Notes under the pieces: model-generated
What the model was told of the DNA's origin: nothing
Databases searched by the model: none
Seen by the model: the letters and a program-made list of their open reading frames with translations, nothing else
From: Dolichospermum sp. DET69
Lineage (GTDB): Bacteria > Cyanobacteriota > Cyanobacteriia > Cyanobacteriales > Nostocaceae
Direction: 5' to 3'
DNA length: 64,000 bases
Assembly: GCA_017355425.1 (NCBI GenBank)
Contig: CP070233.1
Span: 3,141,501-3,205,500 of the forward strand
Program-made: the position numbers and the translations under genes
Shown here: in pieces, positions 1,564 to 62,373 of the stretch
How positions within the stretch are numbered: the stretch's first letter is position 1
Layout of the letters: every line of letters starts with the position of its first letter

Positions 1564-1804
1564 GATATGCACCCGATTAAAGTCCAGGGTTTGAATATTT
1601 TTGAGTTAAGGAAATTTGATTCTCCTCTATTTACTCTAGCGGAATCTAAGTTTGATATTATCAGTAAACCAAAAAGTTTTTTCCTGAAGGGAGATCGCCA
1701 AATACTGTGTAGTATAAAATACTTTTTTATTCCCGATACTCTAATCAGCAGACATAGTATAGATAATAATTACTTATGATTAGCTGGTTAATAATTTCTT
1801 GACG

Positions 1805-2980
1805 CTAACCGGATGGAATATAAATGCTTTCAACGACTTGATATTTCTTCTGTAGGGCTTGAGATAAAAAGGCTAACATCTGTTTGAGTGTAAAAAGTGT
1901 GCGATAAATTAATCTACTACCTTTCCTTTTACGACTGATTTTGAGCCATAGTAGATTCACCCAGATGTTAATTAGAAGAAAGGATATTCCAATGAATAGT
2001 AATCTCAAGACTGGATTTTTGTTATTCGTCTTAATTCGACAAATATTTTTCAGACGATAACTGGTTTCAATGCCAAATCTTTTTCGATAATCTTGATAGA
2101 TATAATTTAAATTTGTTTTGACCTTATAAGCAACATAAACAAAGTATTGAACCCCATGCTTTTTATGCTTTCCCTTTCTATATTTACAGACGATCCATAA
2201 ATCAAATGTGACAAAATCATCTTTGTCTCTTGTAATAGTATAGGTAGTTTTATAACTTTTTTTACCCTTGAGGAATTGTTTGATTCCTCCTTTTTTTCCA
2301 GTCTTGATAGCAGGCATAAGAAAGGGAATATCTAATGCCTGTAACCATCTAATTACAGGAGTATTAAAAAATCCCCTATCCAAATAGAGTTTTTTTACAT
2401 TTATTTTTAGGGATTCAAGTTCTGCTAATAAATAAGTAATTAAAGCCACACTAGTATCTAATTGGCGAACACCTCTTATTGCTAGAGTTACACGCTTATT
2501 ATTACTAATAACATATAAAGTGGCATAGGCATAAAATGAATTAGTACCAGATTTAGCTTCACTTCGATATATGTAGGGTAATTCTGACGATGTTGGTTGA
2601 CCATAATAACAAATTAAATTTAAATCAATCGCTATTTTCAAACACCCTTTTTTTAATCCTAAAGGAATTCGACTTTTTAATGCTTGATTTATTTGCGCTT
2701 CTAATTCCTCAAAATTGTTAATTTTATTGAGATGATATCTAATATCATTAGCTGTCGGAATATTTTTTAACAATTTAGCTGTGTTTTCAATACTGTCTCC
2801 AGTGCTGGCTGCTTTAACCAGAATCTCGAATAAAGTTTGTTGGTCACAGGCTCCTTGCGTTTCAATCGAAAAATTTTCTACTAAACACTGAATAACCTCA
2901 TCAAGAGTTTCTGAGTCGGTTAAAACGAGTTCTTCTGTAGACTCGCCCCGCGTGGCTTTTGTTAGAGATGAAACAGTCAA
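1805..2980 (-). CDS. ISH3-like DDE transposase, full-length copy
   Basis: 391 codons from a TTG start at 2980. No ATG lies in frame upstream before a stop at about 3005. Candidate DDE residues are in IAIDLNLICYYG (~residue 117), LYLDRGFFN (~200) and the RKRFGIETSYR motif (~290), which resembles the Y-R-E signature of IS4-type enzymes. Length and motif order fit the ISH3 family, but this is by eye. A near-identical internally truncated copy lies at 60236-61264. The insertion is upstream of the CheB-CheR gene. I could not find convincing terminal inverted repeats, so the element ends are unresolved (probably about 1.70-1.80 kb and 3.05-3.15 kb). Confidence 0.85.
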   Translation of the reverse strand: MTVSSLTKATRGESTEELVLTDSETLDEVIQCLVENFSIETQGACDQQTLFEILVKAASTGDSIENTAKLLKNIPTANDIRYHLNKINNFEELEAQINQALKSRIPLGLKKGCLKIAIDLNLICYYGQPTSSELPYIYRSEAKSGTNSFYAYATLYVISNNKRVTLAIRGVRQLDTSVALITYLLAELESLKINVKKLYLDRGFFNTPVIRWLQALDIPFLMPAIKTGKKGGIKQFLKGKKSYKTTYTITRDKDDFVTFDLWIVCKYRKGKHKKHGVQYFVYVAYKVKTNLNYIYQDYRKRFGIETSYRLKNICRIKTNNKNPVLRLLFIGISFLLINIWVNLLWLKISRKRKGSRLIYRTLFTLKQMLAFLSQALQKKYQVVESIYIPSG

Positions 2981-3000
2981 TTTTTTCAGCCAATATGCTA

Positions 3001-3692
3001 CACACTACTTTCATCATTTCATATTTTGATCCAGTGCAAATTATGATAACTATTTCTTATATATTTGGTATTCTATAGTACATGAGTATCTGTCGTATTT
3101 TGTTAGTGATGCCTGCTGCGTCTGTAGCAATAGCGTCAGCACTCCGTAAAAATCACTCTTTGGGAAAAACTTTTTGGTTTACTGATTATATATATAAAGT
3201 CATAATTGTTGATAAAATATAGTCAGTAACTCGTGTGTTGATTCTGTGTCTTTTGAGGGGGTAAAAATTCATGCAAAATCTCTGATATCTATTTAGGGCA
3301 AAAGCCTATTTTACAAGGGCTTTACGTTCACATGGACACAAAATTTGCATGAACGAAAAACGGGAAAATTTCATCAAAATTAAAAATTAACACACTAAGT
3401 AGGTGAACACAATAAAATCAATCTGTGTAAAGAAAAGTAAAATCGCCCAAACTCTCTTCAATCTTGCCTTTTGCCTCTTGCCTTGCCATAACGACAATTT
3501 TCAATGCTAACCTACTTAGTACCGCAAGGCGAAAGTCAAAAGTCAAAAGCTTGCCCTCGTGAAAACGGGGGTCAAAAGTCAAAAATAATATGGCGTAAGC
3601 TTTTTGGCGATTGAGAATGGTTGTTTTATTTACGCCGTGCTGTACTAGTAAAAAGGAATGTATGGTCGGTAACAGAACAACCCATAAACCGA
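3001..3692. other. Noncoding stretch between the transposase gene and the tRNA-side repeat
   Basis: No supported gene. The first ~100 bases are probably the upstream end of the IS. Around 3270-3355 an inverted pair built on TTCATGCAAA / TTTGCATGAA encloses a second small stem (AAAGCC / GGCTTT), so this may be a hairpin element remnant. Around 3530-3590 there are short AGTCAAA heptamer repeats. Confidence 0.5.
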
Positions 3693-7092: not shown

Positions 7093-7941
7093 TTAATTAC
7101 CAGATTTTTCCGCAATCTGTCTTACGGCTTCAATATCCACAGCTAACCTTGCAGCTATTTCTTCCACAGTTAAACCCAATTCTAATAACAGCGGTACTGT
7201 TTCTAACTTACCTTCTAACTTACCTTCTAACTTACCTTCTAACTTACCTTCTAACTTACCTTCTAACTTACCTTCTACTTTTGCATCTTCGGCAACTTCT
7301 CGAAAATACCGTGTTTGCTTTAATTCATCTAGGGTAAACATGGCTTCAATCTCCTGACGAGTTAAATTAGTTAACTTATAAACCAAGATCGTCTCTAATA
7401 ATTCTAGAACCTTCTGTCTTTTACTGGCATCTGTTAATTGTTGTCGGGTTTTTTGAATCAACTGCCTAGTATGATCAATTGCAGTTTCTTCTTTTTCCAC
7501 AACTAGCTTTACCATTCCCAACCCTACAGAATTATCGGTTGTGACTTCCAACTCATCCAAATAAATAAACGTGACTTGCTGACTCATTAGCAAACCCCGA
7601 TACTGCATTGGTACACCAGGATCTAAGCTACGTTTAGCAAAAATCGCTACTGCATGAAAATCATTCTTTGGTTGATATTGATTCAGATAAACAAAGATTT
7701 CTGTAAATAGTTTCCAGTAAAAATCCGCCTTTGGTTGAAATTGAACTTCTACAAAGTAAATAGGTTGTTCAGGAATATCCGAAGCAGGTACAAATAAACC
7801 ATCAAAACGAAATGCTAGTTCCTTAATTTCTACAGATGTAAATTGATATGCTTCCACCTCTGTAGCTGGCTTACCAATCAATTCAAACAGGATACTCGGT
7901 AAGGTCTGAAATAGTTGATAGAATATAGTATCAGTTTTCAC
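7093..7941 (-). CDS. Rpn-family (DUF2887-type) PD-(D/E)XK nuclease / putative transposase-like protein
   Basis: 282 residues. The N-terminal ~110 residues carry the Rpn/DUF2887 core: FYQLFQTLPSILFELIG, then FRFDGLFVP and PIYFVEVQFQPKADFYWKLF, which look like the D...ExQ/K nuclease motif. Such proteins stimulate RecA-independent recombination in E. coli Rpn studies; activity here is inferred. The C-terminus has six or more EGKL tetrapeptides from a 12-bp DNA repeat, then a small helix-turn-helix-like tail (LGLTVEEIAARLAVDIEAVRQIA). This family is very common and variable in Nostocales. Confidence 0.82.
   Translation of the reverse strand: MKTDTIFYQLFQTLPSILFELIGKPATEVEAYQFTSVEIKELAFRFDGLFVPASDIPEQPIYFVEVQFQPKADFYWKLFTEIFVYLNQYQPKNDFHAVAIFAKRSLDPGVPMQYRGLLMSQQVTFIYLDELEVTTDNSVGLGMVKLVVEKEETAIDHTRQLIQKTRQQLTDASKRQKVLELLETILVYKLTNLTRQEIEAMFTLDELKQTRYFREVAEDAKVEGKLEGKLEGKLEGKLEGKLEGKLETVPLLLELGLTVEEIAARLAVDIEAVRQIAEKSGN
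7201..7276. repeat. 12-bp tandem repeat inside the Rpn-type gene
   Basis: Unit TTCTAACTTACC repeated about six times. On the coding strand it encodes (EGKL)n. Copy-number change is always in frame (4 residues per unit), so array length can vary without breaking the gene. Confidence 0.95.
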
Positions 7942-10879: not shown

Positions 10880-11046
10880 GCTACGGTGTACACACATCTC
10901 TAGACAGGATGCTAAACGTGATCCGATCCCCCTAAATCCCCCTTAAAAAGGGGGACTTTGAAGAATTTAGCCCCCCTTTTTAAGGGGGGTTGGGGGGATC
11001 TAAACGTTGTGGGGCAACTCTAGAAGACTTGTGTGTACACCGTAGC
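10880..11046. repeat. Hairpin element with GCTACGGTGTACACACA inverted ends
   Basis: The left arm GCTACGGTGTACACACA and right arm TGTGTGTACACCGTAGC are perfect inverted repeats. The interior is itself self-complementary (CCCCCTTAAAAAGGGGG type). One occurrence is seen intact, plus a duplicated right half ending at 11118. Confidence 0.75.
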
Positions 11047-11131
11047 CGATGTATTGGGGGGTTGGGGGGATCTAAACGTTGTGGGGCAACTCTAGAAGAC
11101 TTGTGTGTACACCGTAGCCGATGTATTGGGG
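10984..11131. repeat. 72-bp tandem duplication of a hairpin arm
   Basis: Two direct copies with a 72-base period, identical or nearly so, covering GGGATCTAAACGTTGTGGGG through the TGTACACCGTAGC arm and the following CGATGTATTGGGGG. Confidence 0.85.
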
Positions 11132-11180
11132 GAAACAAGAAAATCTAGTCCCCTCCCCAACACATCGGGGAGGGTTAGGC

Positions 11181-46961: not shown

Positions 46962-47080
46962 TCTCTTATAGGATATGGGATTAAATTTAGTTCTACTTAT
47001 CTATCTTCGTGAATGGAGTGGAGTTCCCGGTAGGGTAAAAGCACCCGTCTTTCTATGGGGAGATTTACCCAATCTGGGAA

Positions 47081-47132
47081 CAGTTGACAGTTGACAGTTG
47101 ACAGTTGACCGTTGACAGTTGACCGTTGACAG
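47081..47132. repeat. Heptamer tandem array (CAGTTGA)n upstream of queA
   Basis: Seven to eight units of CAGTTGA/CCGTTGA. It immediately precedes the queA coding region and keeps that frame open upstream, producing a spurious N-terminal extension. Confidence 0.93.
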
Positions 47133-47170
47133 GAATTTTCCTATTACCAATGACCAATGACTTAATTAAT

Positions 47171-48301
47171 ATGAAGCCAAAAATACGACAAGCAACAGCG
47201 GAAGATGTAAATTTAGATTGTTTATTATCTGGTTATGACTACGAACTTCCACCAGGACTAATTGCCCAAAATCCTGCTGTTCCTAGAGATAGTTCGCGGT
47301 TATTGGTGGTAGATTCTCCTGAAACTGCTAAAACTATACCACCGCTACATCACGTTTTCCGTGATTTATCGGAACTGCTAAAACCAGGGGATTTACTTGT
47401 GATGAATAACACAAAAGTAATTCCCGCTCGGTTGTACGGCTGTAAGTCTACGGGGGCTGGGGTAGAAGTGTTGCTGTTGGAGGAACGACGACATAATTGC
47501 TGGTTGGCTTTGGTGAAACCTGGTAAGCGGTTTACCGTGGGTAGTGAGATTATTTTTACAGCGGGGAAAGATGGAAAACAACAGGAATTGAGGGCGACTG
47601 TTGTAGAATCAGATCCAGAAACTGGGGGACGCTTGTTACAGTTCGATTTACCCGCAGCAGTTCCTTTAGTACAGGTGTTGGAGAAGTTTGGACAGATTCC
47701 CCTACCTCCTTATATCACGGCTTCTACCGCTGCTGATGAACAGTATCAGACGGTGTATGCGGATGTTCAGGGAGCGATCGCTGCGCCAACAGCAGGGTTA
47801 CATTTCACACCTGAATTATTAGAAAAGCTGCGTAGTTGTGGCATTAATCAAGCCTTTATTACTCTTCATGTCGGTGTCGGTACTTTTCGCCCAGTGGAAG
47901 TAGAAGATATTACCACCCATGCAATGCACGAAGAATGGATTGAAGTTCCCCCTGATACTGTTGAGCAAATTCGGGCTACTCAGGCTGCTGGTGGGCGCAT
48001 TATTGCGGTGGGGACAACAGCGGTAAGGGCCTTGGAGGGTGCGGCACAATCGGGGGATTTACAGCCTTATGTGGGGAAGACCAATTTATTTATTTCTCCT
48101 GGGTATAAATGGCAAGTTGTGGAGGGTTTAATTACCAATTTTCATTTACCCCGTTCTAGTTTATTGATGCTGGTTAGTGCTTTAATTGGTAGAGAAAGAT
48201 TATTGGAGATTTACCAACAAGCGATTGCTGCTGAATATCGCTTTTATTCTTTTGGTGATGCCATGCTGATTTTACCGGAAGGGAAAAGTATTAAATTATG
48301 A
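47171..48301 (+). CDS. queA: S-adenosylmethionine:tRNA ribosyltransferase-isomerase QueA
   Basis: 376 residues from ATG 47171; upstream in-frame starts at 47126 and 47150 fall in or next to the heptamer array and do not match the family. Makes epoxyqueuosine in tRNA from preQ1. Signatures: [97 protein letters not shown] and [17 protein letters not shown]. Full length. Confidence 0.95.
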
Positions 48302-48367
48302 ATTTTTGATGAAGTAATGGATAATCTAATTTAGATGAGACTCAGTATAACTAAAGGGTGGTAAAAT

Positions 48368-49480
48368 ATGTATCAAAAACATCACAAATATCCGTACCTA
48401 AACCCAATCAAGGCTGTATGTAAACAAGCATTGACGGTAATTGTCTCTACTTCTTCAGCATTTTTAATTTTCACCTTACCTGCAATTATTAATTCTCCCA
48501 ATGACAAGCTATTAGCAATAGAAGTTGTTTCTCAAGATTTAGACGCAGCTATATATTTTCAGCAGGGAGTGACACTTTATAATAATCAAGATTTTCAGGG
48601 TTCAGAAATAGCTTTTCGCAAAGCCTTAGAGCGAGATCCTAATATTAGTACAGCGCGAAATTATTTAGGGAATATTCTGTTAGAACAAAATCGGCTAGAT
48701 TTAGCTATCCAAGAATTTGGAGAAGCAATCAGATTAAATCCCAATTTGGGAGAAGCTTATTATAATTTGGGTGTAGCTTTACAAAAACAGGGACAAAAAG
48801 AAGCCGCTATTACAGCTTATCGTCAAGCTTTAGTAGTCACTCCCACCCTAGCTAATGCCCATTATAATTTGGGAGTTTTGTGGTATGAACAAGAACAGCG
48901 TCAGGATGCGATTGCTGCTTATGAACAAGCAATTAATTTAGATAGAAATAATAAAGATGCTTATTTTAATTTAGCAATTGTTCAACAACAAGAAGGTCAA
49001 GTAGAATTGGCAATTTCTGCCTATCGGGAAGTTTTGAAAATAGATCCCAAAAATGCTATAGCTTACAATAATTTGGGTAGTCTTTTAGTAAATCAAGGTA
49101 AAATTTCCGAAGCAATTAATATTTACAAAGAAGCAATTCGTCAAAATCCCAAAAATACCTCTGCTCAGTATAATTTAGGAGTAACTTTATATAATCAAGG
49201 TGCTTGGCAGGATTCGGCTCAAGCATTAAGACGCGCTCGTCAACAGTATACACTTGAGGGAAATACTGAGCAACTTGCCAAAACTGAACAAGTAATGCAG
49301 CAAATTGCCCAGATTTTAATACCTAAAAAATCACCAGTAAATCCATCAGGTAGCACAACAGCAATTACTACTCCACCTGTTGAACAAGCACCCGCAAATC
49401 TTCCACCTGTAGAAGAAGCACCTGTAAATACTCCGAAACCTGTAGAAATTACTTTACCTAATTTGACACCAAATAAATAA
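48368..49480 (+). CDS. Secreted/periplasmic TPR protein
   Basis: 370 residues. A signal-like hydrophobic segment (~19-40, ALTVIVSTSSAFLIFTLPAI) is followed by seven tetratricopeptide repeats (~62-300; recurring A.YNLG..L..QG....AI..Y..A...P) and a proline-rich tail with VEQAPANLPPVEEAPVN repeats. Probably a protein-interaction scaffold outside the cytoplasm. No catalytic domain. Confidence 0.86.
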   Translation: MYQKHHKYPYLNPIKAVCKQALTVIVSTSSAFLIFTLPAIINSPNDKLLAIEVVSQDLDAAIYFQQGVTLYNNQDFQGSEIAFRKALERDPNISTARNYLGNILLEQNRLDLAIQEFGEAIRLNPNLGEAYYNLGVALQKQGQKEAAITAYRQALVVTPTLANAHYNLGVLWYEQEQRQDAIAAYEQAINLDRNNKDAYFNLAIVQQQEGQVELAISAYREVLKIDPKNAIAYNNLGSLLVNQGKISEAINIYKEAIRQNPKNTSAQYNLGVTLYNQGAWQDSAQALRRARQQYTLEGNTEQLAKTEQVMQQIAQILIPKKSPVNPSGSTTAITTPPVEQAPANLPPVEEAPVNTPKPVEITLPNLTPNK

Positions 49481-49523
49481 TTGGTCATTAGTCAGTGGTC
49501 ATTGGTCATTAGTCATTGGTAAA
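49481..49523. repeat. Heptamer-type array (TTAGTCA/TTGGTCA)n
   Basis: About five irregular 7-bp units directly after the TPR stop codon, same unit family as the arrays around 60.2 and 61.3 kb. Confidence 0.8.
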
Positions 49524-51871: not shown

Positions 51872-52726
51872 ATGAGTCAAATACTTTACAAACAAATTCA
51901 GCAATTTTACGATGCTTCTTCTGGTTTGTGGGAACAAATTTGGGGGGAACATATGCACCACGGTTATTATGGTGCAGATGGAAAACAGGTAAAAGAACGC
52001 CGTCAAGCACAAATTGATTTAATTGAAGAACTGCTAAAGTGGGCAGATGTTAAGGGCGCTGAAAATATCCTGGATGTGGGTTGTGGAATTGGTGGTAGTT
52101 CTTTATACTTGGCTGATAAGTTTGGGGCAAATGCAACAGGAATTACACTCAGTCCTGTACAAGCTGCTAGAGCGACAGAAAGGTCTTTGGCAATGAATTT
52201 GAGTCAGAAAACTAGATTCATGGTTGCCAATGCTCAAGAAATGCCTTTTGAGGATAATTCTTTTGATTTGGTGTGGTCACTGGAAAGTGGTGAGCATATG
52301 CCAGATAAAACTAAATTCTTACAAGAATGTTATCGCGTGTTGAAACCCGGTGGGACTTTGATTATGGTAACTTGGTGTCATCGGAATACAGACAAATTAG
52401 CACTGACACAGGATGAGCAAAAGCAGTTAGAAGATATTTATCGAGTTTATTGTTTACCCTATGTTATTTCTTTAGCAGAGTATGAAGCGATCGCTTGGCA
52501 ATTACCATTAAATAATATTCGCACGGCTGATTGGTCAACCGCTGTTGCTCCTTTCTGGAATGTAGTAATTGATTCGGCTTTTACACCGCAAGCGTTTATA
52601 GGTTTATTAATGGCTGGTTGGACTACAATTCAGGGGGCATTATCTTTAGGGTTAATGCGTCGAGGTTATGAAAGCGGATTAATTCGGTTTGGATTATTAC
52701 GAGGGACAAAAGAATTTAGAATTTAG
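51872..52726 (+). CDS. Gamma-tocopherol methyltransferase
   Basis: 284 residues from ATG 51872; an in-frame TTG at 51839 would add 11 residues. Strong resemblance to the Synechocystis gamma-TMT type: FYDASSGLWEQIWGEHMHHG, NILDVGCGIGGSSLYLAD (SAM motif I), ITLSPVQAARATERS, WSLESGEHMPDKTKFLQECY, RVLKPGGTLIMVTWCHR and DWSTAVAPFWNVVIDSAF. Converts gamma- to alpha-tocopherol. The 3' end (KEFRI stop) lies in an AATTTAG heptamer array. Followed after 28 bp by the phytyltransferase gene. Confidence 0.92.
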   Translation: MSQILYKQIQQFYDASSGLWEQIWGEHMHHGYYGADGKQVKERRQAQIDLIEELLKWADVKGAENILDVGCGIGGSSLYLADKFGANATGITLSPVQAARATERSLAMNLSQKTRFMVANAQEMPFEDNSFDLVWSLESGEHMPDKTKFLQECYRVLKPGGTLIMVTWCHRNTDKLALTQDEQKQLEDIYRVYCLPYVISLAEYEAIAWQLPLNNIRTADWSTAVAPFWNVVIDSAFTPQAFIGLLMAGWTTIQGALSLGLMRRGYESGLIRFGLLRGTKEFRI

Positions 52727-52740
52727 AATTTAGAATTTAG
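52713..52740. repeat. Heptamer tandem array (AATTTAG)4 at the 3' end of the tocopherol methyltransferase gene
   Basis: Four units; the first supplies the last codons and the stop of the coding sequence. The unit sequence differs from the other heptamer arrays in this window, but the period is the same. Confidence 0.9.
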
Positions 52741-52754
52741 AAAAATAACAAAAA

Positions 52755-59647: not shown

Positions 59648-60187
59648 ATGAGACGTAAACCTAGTAATAAATCAACTAATACTCCTAAACCCTCTATTTT
59701 TTCATCCTCGACCTTTAACTTCGCTACTATTGCCCTTTTAGGAGGGGTGATGATTTTGGGAATTGGGATTGGGATTGCGTTTAGTTCTACAACTACCTTG
59801 AGTTCATCAAATGTGGCTTCCCGTGAGTTCATTGACACCAGAGCGCCAAATCCTGAGCTTTGCGTGCAGTTTGGATCTAGTGCCATGGTGATGGATGCTA
59901 GACTATTTGTAACTCTTAATCCATTTAATGTCTTTGTTGCCCAGCCAAATATCCGTCCTGGATGTGTAATTCGTCAAAATAACTGGGCAATTTTGGAAAA
60001 TAAAAAACTTGTAACATCAGATCAGGTACGAGAATGTAAGAATCGTTTGAATACCTTTGGCTTTACGGGTGACTTAAACAGTGAAAAGCCAGATATTAGA
60101 TGTATTTATCAAAATGAATCGGCTCAAAATTTCTTTTTATCTCAACCAGGGGCTGTGGGAAGTCCACAAGATACGGAAAGATTTTAA
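59648..60187 (+). CDS. DUF3172-family protein
   Basis: 179 residues. A basic Ser/Thr-rich N-terminus, one transmembrane or signal helix (~27-47, IALLGGVMILGIGIGIAF), then the conserved domain: ASREFIDTRAPNPELCVQFG, DARLFVTLNPFNVFVAQPNI, RPGCVIRQNNWAILENKKLV and RECKNRLNTFGFTGDL, with several conserved cysteines. The family is present in cyanobacteria and plastids and is uncharacterised. The gene sits between two inverted MITE copies. Confidence 0.87.
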   Translation: MRRKPSNKSTNTPKPSIFSSSTFNFATIALLGGVMILGIGIGIAFSSTTTLSSSNVASREFIDTRAPNPELCVQFGSSAMVMDARLFVTLNPFNVFVAQPNIRPGCVIRQNNWAILENKKLVTSDQVRECKNRLNTFGFTGDLNSEKPDIRCIYQNESAQNFFLSQPGAVGSPQDTERF

Positions 60188-60189
60188 AT

Positions 60190-60249
60190 AGCATTAGTCA
60201 TTAGTCATTAGTCATTAGTCATTAGTCATTGGTCATTAGTCATTAGTCA
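60190..60249. repeat. Heptamer tandem array (TTAGTCA)8-9, left of the trapped IS fragment
   Basis: TTAGTCA units with one TTGGTCA variant. Its last unit runs straight into internal transposase sequence at ATGTTAATTAG. Confidence 0.95.
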
Positions 60250-61264
60250 TGTTAATTAGAAGAAAGGATATTCCAATGAATAGTAATCTCAAGACTGGAT
60301 TTTTGTTATTCGTCTTAATTCGACAAATATTTTTCAGACGATAACTGGTTTCAATGCCAAATCTTTTTCGATAATCTTGATAGATATAATTTAAATTTGT
60401 TTTGACCTTATAAGCAACATAAACAAAGTATTGAACCCCATGCTTTTTATGCTTTCCCTTTCTATATTTACAGACGATCCATAAATCAAATGTGACAAAA
60501 TCATCTTTGTCTCTTGTAATAGTATAGGTAGTTTTATAACTTTTTTTACCCTTGAGGAATTGTTTGATTCCTCCTTTTTTTCCAGTCTTGATAGCAGGCA
60601 TAAGAAAGGGAATATCTAATGCCTGTAACCATCTAATTACAGGAGTATTAAAAAATCCCCTATCCAAATAGAGTTTTTTTACATTTATTTTTAGGGATTC
60701 AAGTTCTGCTAATAAATAAGTAATTAAAGCCACACTAGTATCTAATTGGCGAACACCTCTTATTGCTAGAGTTACACGCTTATTATTACTAATAACATAT
60801 AAAGTGGCATAGGCATAAAATGAATTAGTACCAGATTTAGCTTCACTTCGATATATGTAGGGTAATTCTGACGATGTTGGTTGACCATAATAACAAATTA
60901 AATTTAAATCAATCGCTATTTTCAAACACCCTTTTTTTAATCCTAAAGGAATTCGACTTTTTAATGCTTGATTTATTTGCGCTTCTAATTCCTCAAAATT
61001 GTTAATTTTATTGAGATGATATCTAATATCATTAGCTGTCGGAATATTTTTTAACAATTTAGCTGTGTTTTCAATACTGTCTCCAGTGCTGGCTGCTTTA
61101 ACCAGAATCTCGAATAAAGTTTGTTGGTCACAGGCTCCTTGCGTTTCAATCGAAAAATTTTCTACTAAACACTGAATAACCTCATCAAGAGTTTCTGAGT
61201 CGGTTAAAACGAGTTCTTCTGTAGACTCGCCCCGCGTGGCTTTTGTTAGAGATGAAATAGTCAT
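60236..61264 (-). pseudogene. Truncated second copy of the ISH3-like transposase, embedded in heptamer repeats
   Basis: Transposase-derived DNA spans about 60248-61262 and corresponds base for base to 1965-2979, with a single visible difference near the right edge. 342 codons: the array supplies a new ATG (instead of the TTG of the full copy) and, after LLIN, the residues MTND and a stop. About 52 C-terminal residues and both IS ends are missing; the three catalytic motifs are retained. Confidence 0.9.
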
Positions 61265-61333
61265 TAGTCATTAGTCATTAGGTCATTAGTCATTAGTCAT
61301 TAGTCATTGGTCATTAGTCATTAGTCATTAGTT
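61260..61333. repeat. Heptamer tandem array (TTAGTCA)n, right of the trapped IS fragment
   Basis: About ten units, one with an extra base (TTAGGTCA) and one TTGGTCA variant. Same unit and phase class as the left array at 60190. Confidence 0.95.
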
Positions 61334-61644: not shown

Positions 61645-62373
61645 TTAATCACGACCATTGATAGCAATAAGCAAGCGTAAGATAAAGACAAATAAGTTGA
61701 TGTAGGTGAGGTACATTGACAAAGCTGCTGGTAAATACTCATCATTGCGGTAAGTGCGGGGCAAGATGTAAAAATCAACTACTGATGCTCCCGCAAAGAG
61801 AAATACACCTATACCAGAGATACCAATTTCTAACCAACTGGGTGTATAAACACCAAACAAGGCAAAGACAAATTGGAGCAGACAAACCACCAATAAGGCA
61901 ACAATCCCCAAACTAATGGTTTTTGTCAAAGCCATACCGTCTGCTTCCGAAAGGTTAGAACCGATTTTTCGGGCAACAATGAAGGTAATGCCACAACTTA
62001 AAGCAGCAATAGCAATACCTTGAATACCTACCCCTTGGGTTCTCAAAGCTACAAATACCAAGCCACTCAAGGTATATCCAGATAATAGACTGTAAATACC
62101 CAATAGGGGCAAGGCTAGGGCTTTGTTACCTTTTGATGCCACATTTTGGGCAACGAAAAACAAAATTAACTCTAGAATTACTGCTACAATAAATGTAGGA
62201 AAAAAGAGTCCAGGGTTATTGCGGATAACACCTAAACCACCATAAGTTCCGAATGCTGTCAGCACCAATCCACCACCGACATAGGGCAGGGCGTTAGCGA
62301 TGACATTAGGCCCAATGATGCCATGAGTTCTGGCCTCACGGAAAGCTTCACGAAAATTGCTGGAATTACTCAT
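61645..62373 (-). CDS. Bax-inhibitor-1-like membrane protein
   Basis: 242 residues with seven hydrophobic helices (about residues 27-47, 56-74, 86-106, 116-134, 146-168, 178-198, 214-236). Family-type residues include SLLSGYTLSGLVF, LFAGASVVDFYILPRTYRND and ALSMYLTYINLFVFILRLL. Bacterial BI-1 homologues are pH-sensitive Ca2+ leak channels; the function in cyanobacteria is not established. Monocistronic. Confidence 0.87.
   Translation of the reverse strand: MSNSSNFREAFREARTHGIIGPNVIANALPYVGGGLVLTAFGTYGGLGVIRNNPGLFFPTFIVAVILELILFFVAQNVASKGNKALALPLLGIYSLLSGYTLSGLVFVALRTQGVGIQGIAIAALSCGITFIVARKIGSNLSEADGMALTKTISLGIVALLVVCLLQFVFALFGVYTPSWLEIGISGIGVFLFAGASVVDFYILPRTYRNDEYLPAALSMYLTYINLFVFILRLLIAINGRD

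Follow-up and report, generated by a model that had tools for sequence, protein, structure and literature searches.

The window, by which we mean the whole 64,000-nucleotide stretch of DNA analysed, spans bases 3141501-3205500 of contig 1 in a two-contig assembly of 6.04 Mb, of which contig 1 makes up 5.84 Mb; its relatives put the source genome in the Dolichospermum/Anabaena group. Between a forward-strand gene for a DUF3172 protein (59648..60187; PF11371) and a reverse-strand gene for a Bax1-inhibitor family protein (61645..62373; PF01027) stand two arrays of the heptamer TTRGTCA, neither of them assigned to a strand, which are separated by an internal fragment of an insertion sequence (IS) of the ISH3 family. 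The left array (60192..60250) comprises eight units, counting the two bases common to array and IS, and the right array (61258..61332) comprises ten, one of them eight bases long (TAGGTCAT). The fragment itself (60249..61257, reverse strand, in the transposase frame) reproduces 1009 bp from the central part of the IS, bases 212-1220 in the transposase sense, and matches positions 1965-2973 of the full copy carried by the same window without a mismatch, this being the longest exact match. With 1009 identical bases, and as one of 18 matches to the IS in the genome, the fragment is beyond chance. It lacks 211 bp at one IS end (bases 1-211) and 303 bp at the other (bases 1221-1523), and its joints carry neither the IS ends nor a target duplication, the flanks being heptamer array on both sides; it is not a transposable copy. 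The preliminary description of this DNA had placed the fragment between two arrays with neither IS end present, which the coordinates and the flanking sequence bear out. It had also given the match as 1015 bp of identity (1965-2979), the length that BLAST returns; the long match stands, but its exact part is 1009 bp, followed by a mismatch (C in the IS at 2974, T in the array at 61258) and then by AGTCA, which IS and array have in common.

The arrays belong to a class that we take to be the STRR heptamer arrays of heterocystous cyanobacteria. They are dispersed in the genome, where 411 overlapping matches to three units were counted, against 0 for the reversed control. Like STRR arrays, they consist of 7-base units, occupy many genomic places and vary in unit number between relatives; in contrast to them, the array described here is split by a piece of an IS. 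Heptameric repeats with variable unit number are known in Nostoc from at least one report (PMC4692102).

The intact insertion sequence and its copies

The full IS (1662..3184, reverse strand) measures 1523 bp, has 23-bp terminal inverted repeats in which 22/23 bases match and a 5-bp target duplication, and is one of 16 identical copies. Its 391-aa transposase (1805..2980, reverse strand, with a TTG start as listed) scores 248.9 bits with the NCBIfam model NF033541 (ISH3), whose cut-off is 225, and also passes Pfam PF01609. A 5-bp target duplication is expected of the ISH3 family, and perfect ones occur at 14 of the 16 full copies, which share with the family its transposase, its terminal inverted repeats and its duplications; by comparison, the array fragment has neither end. 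BLAST finds 18 matches to the IS in the source genome, namely the 16 full copies, one 94% copy with both ends and the array fragment, so that 17/18 have both ends, one (the fragment) has neither and 0/18 are without just one end.

All 16 full copies are identical to each other over 1523 bp, as the fragment is to them over 1009 bp. Sixteen identical copies, 14 of them with perfect duplications, suggest that the IS is, or was until lately, active, and since there are no differences among the copies or in the fragment, the events look recent. Gene conversion among copies could also maintain identity and mimic youth. The earlier argument from near-identity to a recent event is thus upheld by a fragment identical to young full copies, and would be weaker if gene conversion had acted on them. 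On contig 1 of the source genome (G000:C1:1280738-1289460), about 6 kb separates two full copies that face opposite ways and whose target duplications do not match; one flank pair is reverse complementary (ATAAA/TTTAT), as expected after inversion between copies, and the other (ATAAT/ATAAC) is mismatched. Within some 55-60 bases to either side of the 16 copies in the source genome there is no heptamer array, and a preference of the IS for such arrays is accordingly unsupported there. In two relatives (G008 and G010), IS copies directly abut CCCATTA/GGTAATG heptamer arrays.

The site in the sister genome

Sixty genomes were searched, the source included, and the DNA of the left neighbour gene was matched in 57 of them. 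Within the genus, 14 of the 15 other genomes were matched; an array of at least two TTRGTCA units in the 700 bases after the left gene (464 in one case) was found in one of these 14 and was absent from the remaining 13. The one genome is the sister draft G002 (Dolichospermum sp. ST_sed8), whose same site holds an uninterrupted array of 10 units; the contig around the empty array (G002:C330) is 68.7 kb long and, at the site, resembles JAKOGY010000003.1 in sequence. An uninterrupted TTAGTCA array in a relative, as the preliminary description had predicted, does therefore exist. Source and sister are the same over a run of 65 bases that spans eight units and ends at the joint with the 2 bp common to array and IS, and both flanks of the fragment are collinear with the sister. 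With an array devoid of the fragment in G002, parsimony makes it most likely that the array is the older and that the fragment was added to it in the source lineage, the ancestral state and the array length both being read from one genome with an empty array. No match to this IS was found in G002 at an E value of 0.001; as a draft of about 530 contigs, from which repeated ISs may drop out, G002 offers in this missing IS weaker evidence than in its empty array.

The order of events could conceivably be reversed, the arrays having grown out from both joints after the arrival of the fragment, as the preliminary description had allowed. Heptamer arrays differ much between the two sister genomes, which speaks for the quick turnover that such growth would need. 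However, G002 shows the array and no fragment, the left array of the source keeps the sister's unit order (its first eight units) up to the joint, and outgrowth would then require that the sister had lost the fragment with precision; we regard it as scarcely credible. The same comparison bears on whether the arrangement is an assembly chimaera. Assemblers can be misled by 17 near-identical IS copies and two repeat arrays; against this, the locus belongs to a contig of 5.84 Mb with both flanks collinear with the sister, a mis-join would normally bring IS ends with it, and the same array would have to be hit from both sides, which makes a chimaera very improbable.

The two arrays beside the fragment sum to 18 units, against 10 in G002. 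The extra units would fit a partial duplication of the array during capture of the fragment, but they are weak evidence for it, since arrays of the region where nothing was captured also vary by several units from one genome to the other: a TTGGTAA array has 13.3 units in the source genome and 9.3 in G002, and three further sites differ in unit or in unit number. These are 47080-47132 (ACAGTTG in the source, GGGAATA in G002), 49480-49520 (AGAATTT against a TCAGGAG-type repeat) and 52711-52742 (where the sister has fewer units of TTRGTCA and many more of TTCCCTA). The 391-aa open reading frame at 47126-48301, beside the ACAGTTG array, was considered as a second transposase and set aside, as its translation differs by eye; it presumably encodes QueA. 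A further difference is a segment of about 1.08 kb with most of a TPR-protein gene (48347-49424), present in the source and missing in G002, with a near-clean joint.

Joints and route of entry

Read in the sense orientation, the IS lacks AGTCA and has a single TGACT, which occupies bases 206-210; the joint, at 211/212, is one base further on. The array end TGACTA faces TGACTG in the IS, so that five of the six bases before the joint match, five in a row followed by a mismatch. In simulated joints, combining IS position with array phase, an array match of at least 5/6 bases on that side occurs in 68 of 10577 cases (0.64%). At the other joint there is exact homology of 2 bp, and at least 2 bp is found in 20% of random joints. 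Taken as they stand, the TGACT joint appears informative and the 2-bp joint uninformative. The earlier claim that both joins lie at microhomology was correct as to AT on the left, while AGTCA on the right lies one mismatch off the joint, and only the homology on the TGACT side exceeds chance.

On balance, capture of the fragment in a single step, by template switching or break repair, seems the best reading of the locus, and it is favoured for accounting for the facts in the fewest steps. The heptamer array between the DUF3172 and Bax1-inhibitor family genes would have broken or stalled in replication; one array end would have annealed to a copy of the IS at its sole TGACT, the next base being mismatched, and primed synthesis over some 1 kb of the transposase gene. 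At the 2-bp match, synthesis would then have switched from the IS back to the array, perhaps resuming in an earlier register, so that array came to lie on both sides. A physical piece of IS DNA joined at these same points would have the identical outcome. We infer that there was one event, that the sequence was copied rather than pasted, in which direction synthesis ran and that the extra units stem from the same event; a strain in between the source genome and G002 was looked for in vain. For the template switching or repeat-mediated capture proposed earlier there speak the missing marks of transposition, the identity to young copies, one joint above chance and the empty array in G002; against it counts the second joint, with its homology of only 2 bp.

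A serious though less probable alternative is that the complete IS entered the array by transposition, creating a 5-bp duplication, and that two separate deletions between array and IS interior then removed both ends together with the duplication. An IS so lately active, with copies beside other heptamer arrays in G008 and G010, could have landed here; the arrays in the region are unstable, and slippage between TAGTCA of the array and CAGTCA of the IS would yield the right joint as observed. Set against this is the need for three events and array growth at one copy, when 16 others are unchanged over 1523 bp. Two independent deletions would make one-ended intermediates likely, and the source genome has no such match among its 18, even if one-ended matches do occur elsewhere in the genus (G005 and G014). 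Insertion followed by two deletions is less favoured on account of this absence and of the young IS burst, which leaves little time for it. The earlier statement that this is not transposition is thus right in that the joints bear neither IS ends nor a duplication, but it goes too far, as transposition followed by two end deletions leaves the same sequence.

The position of the TGACT joint could also point to RNA, if transposase mRNA had been reverse-transcribed and the product used to mend a break: the start of the fragment coincides with that of the transposase as listed, the joint lying at the third codon, behind the TTG. The TGACT homology accounts for this position equally well, and there is no intron or tail to mark RNA, so that we consider an RNA template most improbable.

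Capture by a single switch would resemble templated insertion and microhomology-mediated break-induced replication (MMBIR), in which a distant segment is copied with short homology at the joints. The likeness lies in the retained donor (16 full copies), in the pre-existing target (seen in one sister) and in the short homology at one joint; the differences are that the host is a cyanobacterium, that the acceptor is a tandem array and that a single event is here no more than probable. The locus is a natural case of an IS-internal segment in a tandem array, with both an empty sister site and an intact donor. If it does go back to one event, it would document templated insertion in a cyanobacterium and suggest heptamer arrays as weak points for DNA capture.

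The chimaeric frame and other arrays

The fragment and its flanks together form an open reading frame of 342 aa (60236..61264, reverse strand; PF01609, 3.3e-07), which opens with an array-encoded ATG (MTISS), continues with transposase residues to 338 and closes with array-encoded MTND and a stop. Its first 338 residues differ from the full transposase at residues 1 and 3 only. The ATG, the MTND and the stop noted in the preliminary description are present, but they make a weak point, being expected of a 7-base period: a TGACTAA array reads stop-L-M-T-N-D-stop repeatedly in any frame, and an in-frame ATG arises from 12 of 21 combinations of phase and frame, a stop within five codons from all 21. 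With these counts, and with no ribosome-binding site apparent on visual inspection ahead of the frame, we rejected a meaningful role for the start and stop that the array supplies. The sequence gives no reason to think that the frame is expressed, and we propose no function for it.

The search for other genes captured in heptamer arrays, which the preliminary description had called for, covered the TTRGTCA unit only, with array ends in some of its phases, and is to that extent incomplete; its 67 end-like matches (13 + 6 + 48) include some within one interrupted array. At the five places with neighbouring TTRGTCA arrays examined in the source genome there was no second capture, nor, by whole-genome match to the IS, any further piece of this IS. 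They comprise arrays at 2048.5/2050.5 kb and at 2641.3/2642.9 kb, with genes in between that we take to be FNR-like and phycobilisome-like, respectively; an array beside another array at 4174 kb; a short coding-looking stretch between arrays in inverted orientation at 4966.9/4967.3 kb (G000:C1); and a single interrupted array at 5813 kb. Within the FNR-like gene, a 48-bp unit is repeated four times in tandem without breaking the frame.

The relative G008 also has an internal fragment of this IS with neither end (on G008:C1; IS bases 441-1424, 984 bp, 98%), which is framed by a short CTTCGTG repeat in inverted copies. In the five relatives compared by coordinates (G005, G009, G010, G012 and G013), some 2.7 to 9.4 kb separate its right flank from a presumably pntB-like gene, and this varying distance marks the place as a variable island. 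As no heptamer array is reported there, the left joint has no exact homology and no clean empty site was found, it was dropped as a parallel case.

More broadly, the heptamer arrays of bloom-forming cyanobacteria might be general acceptors for template switching, at which breaks are mended with foreign sequence, be it another heptamer or 1 kb from the gene of an IS. This reading, which draws on the different heptamer units found at the same site in the sister, is at present improbable; if true, the arrays would be places where new DNA, and with it new reading frames, can enter. Among the literature matches listed, none concerned IS fragments inside cyanobacterial heptamer arrays, as far as titles and abstract openings go. 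As a single case, the locus leaves the understanding of ISs and of heptamer arrays unchanged: it is a recent, well-resolved partial IS copy in an array, unusual for its clean empty site and ordinary in kind. Elsewhere in the window, perfect tandem repeats occur at 7201-7277 (12 bp, 6.4 copies) and at 10984-11132 (72 bp, 2.1 copies).
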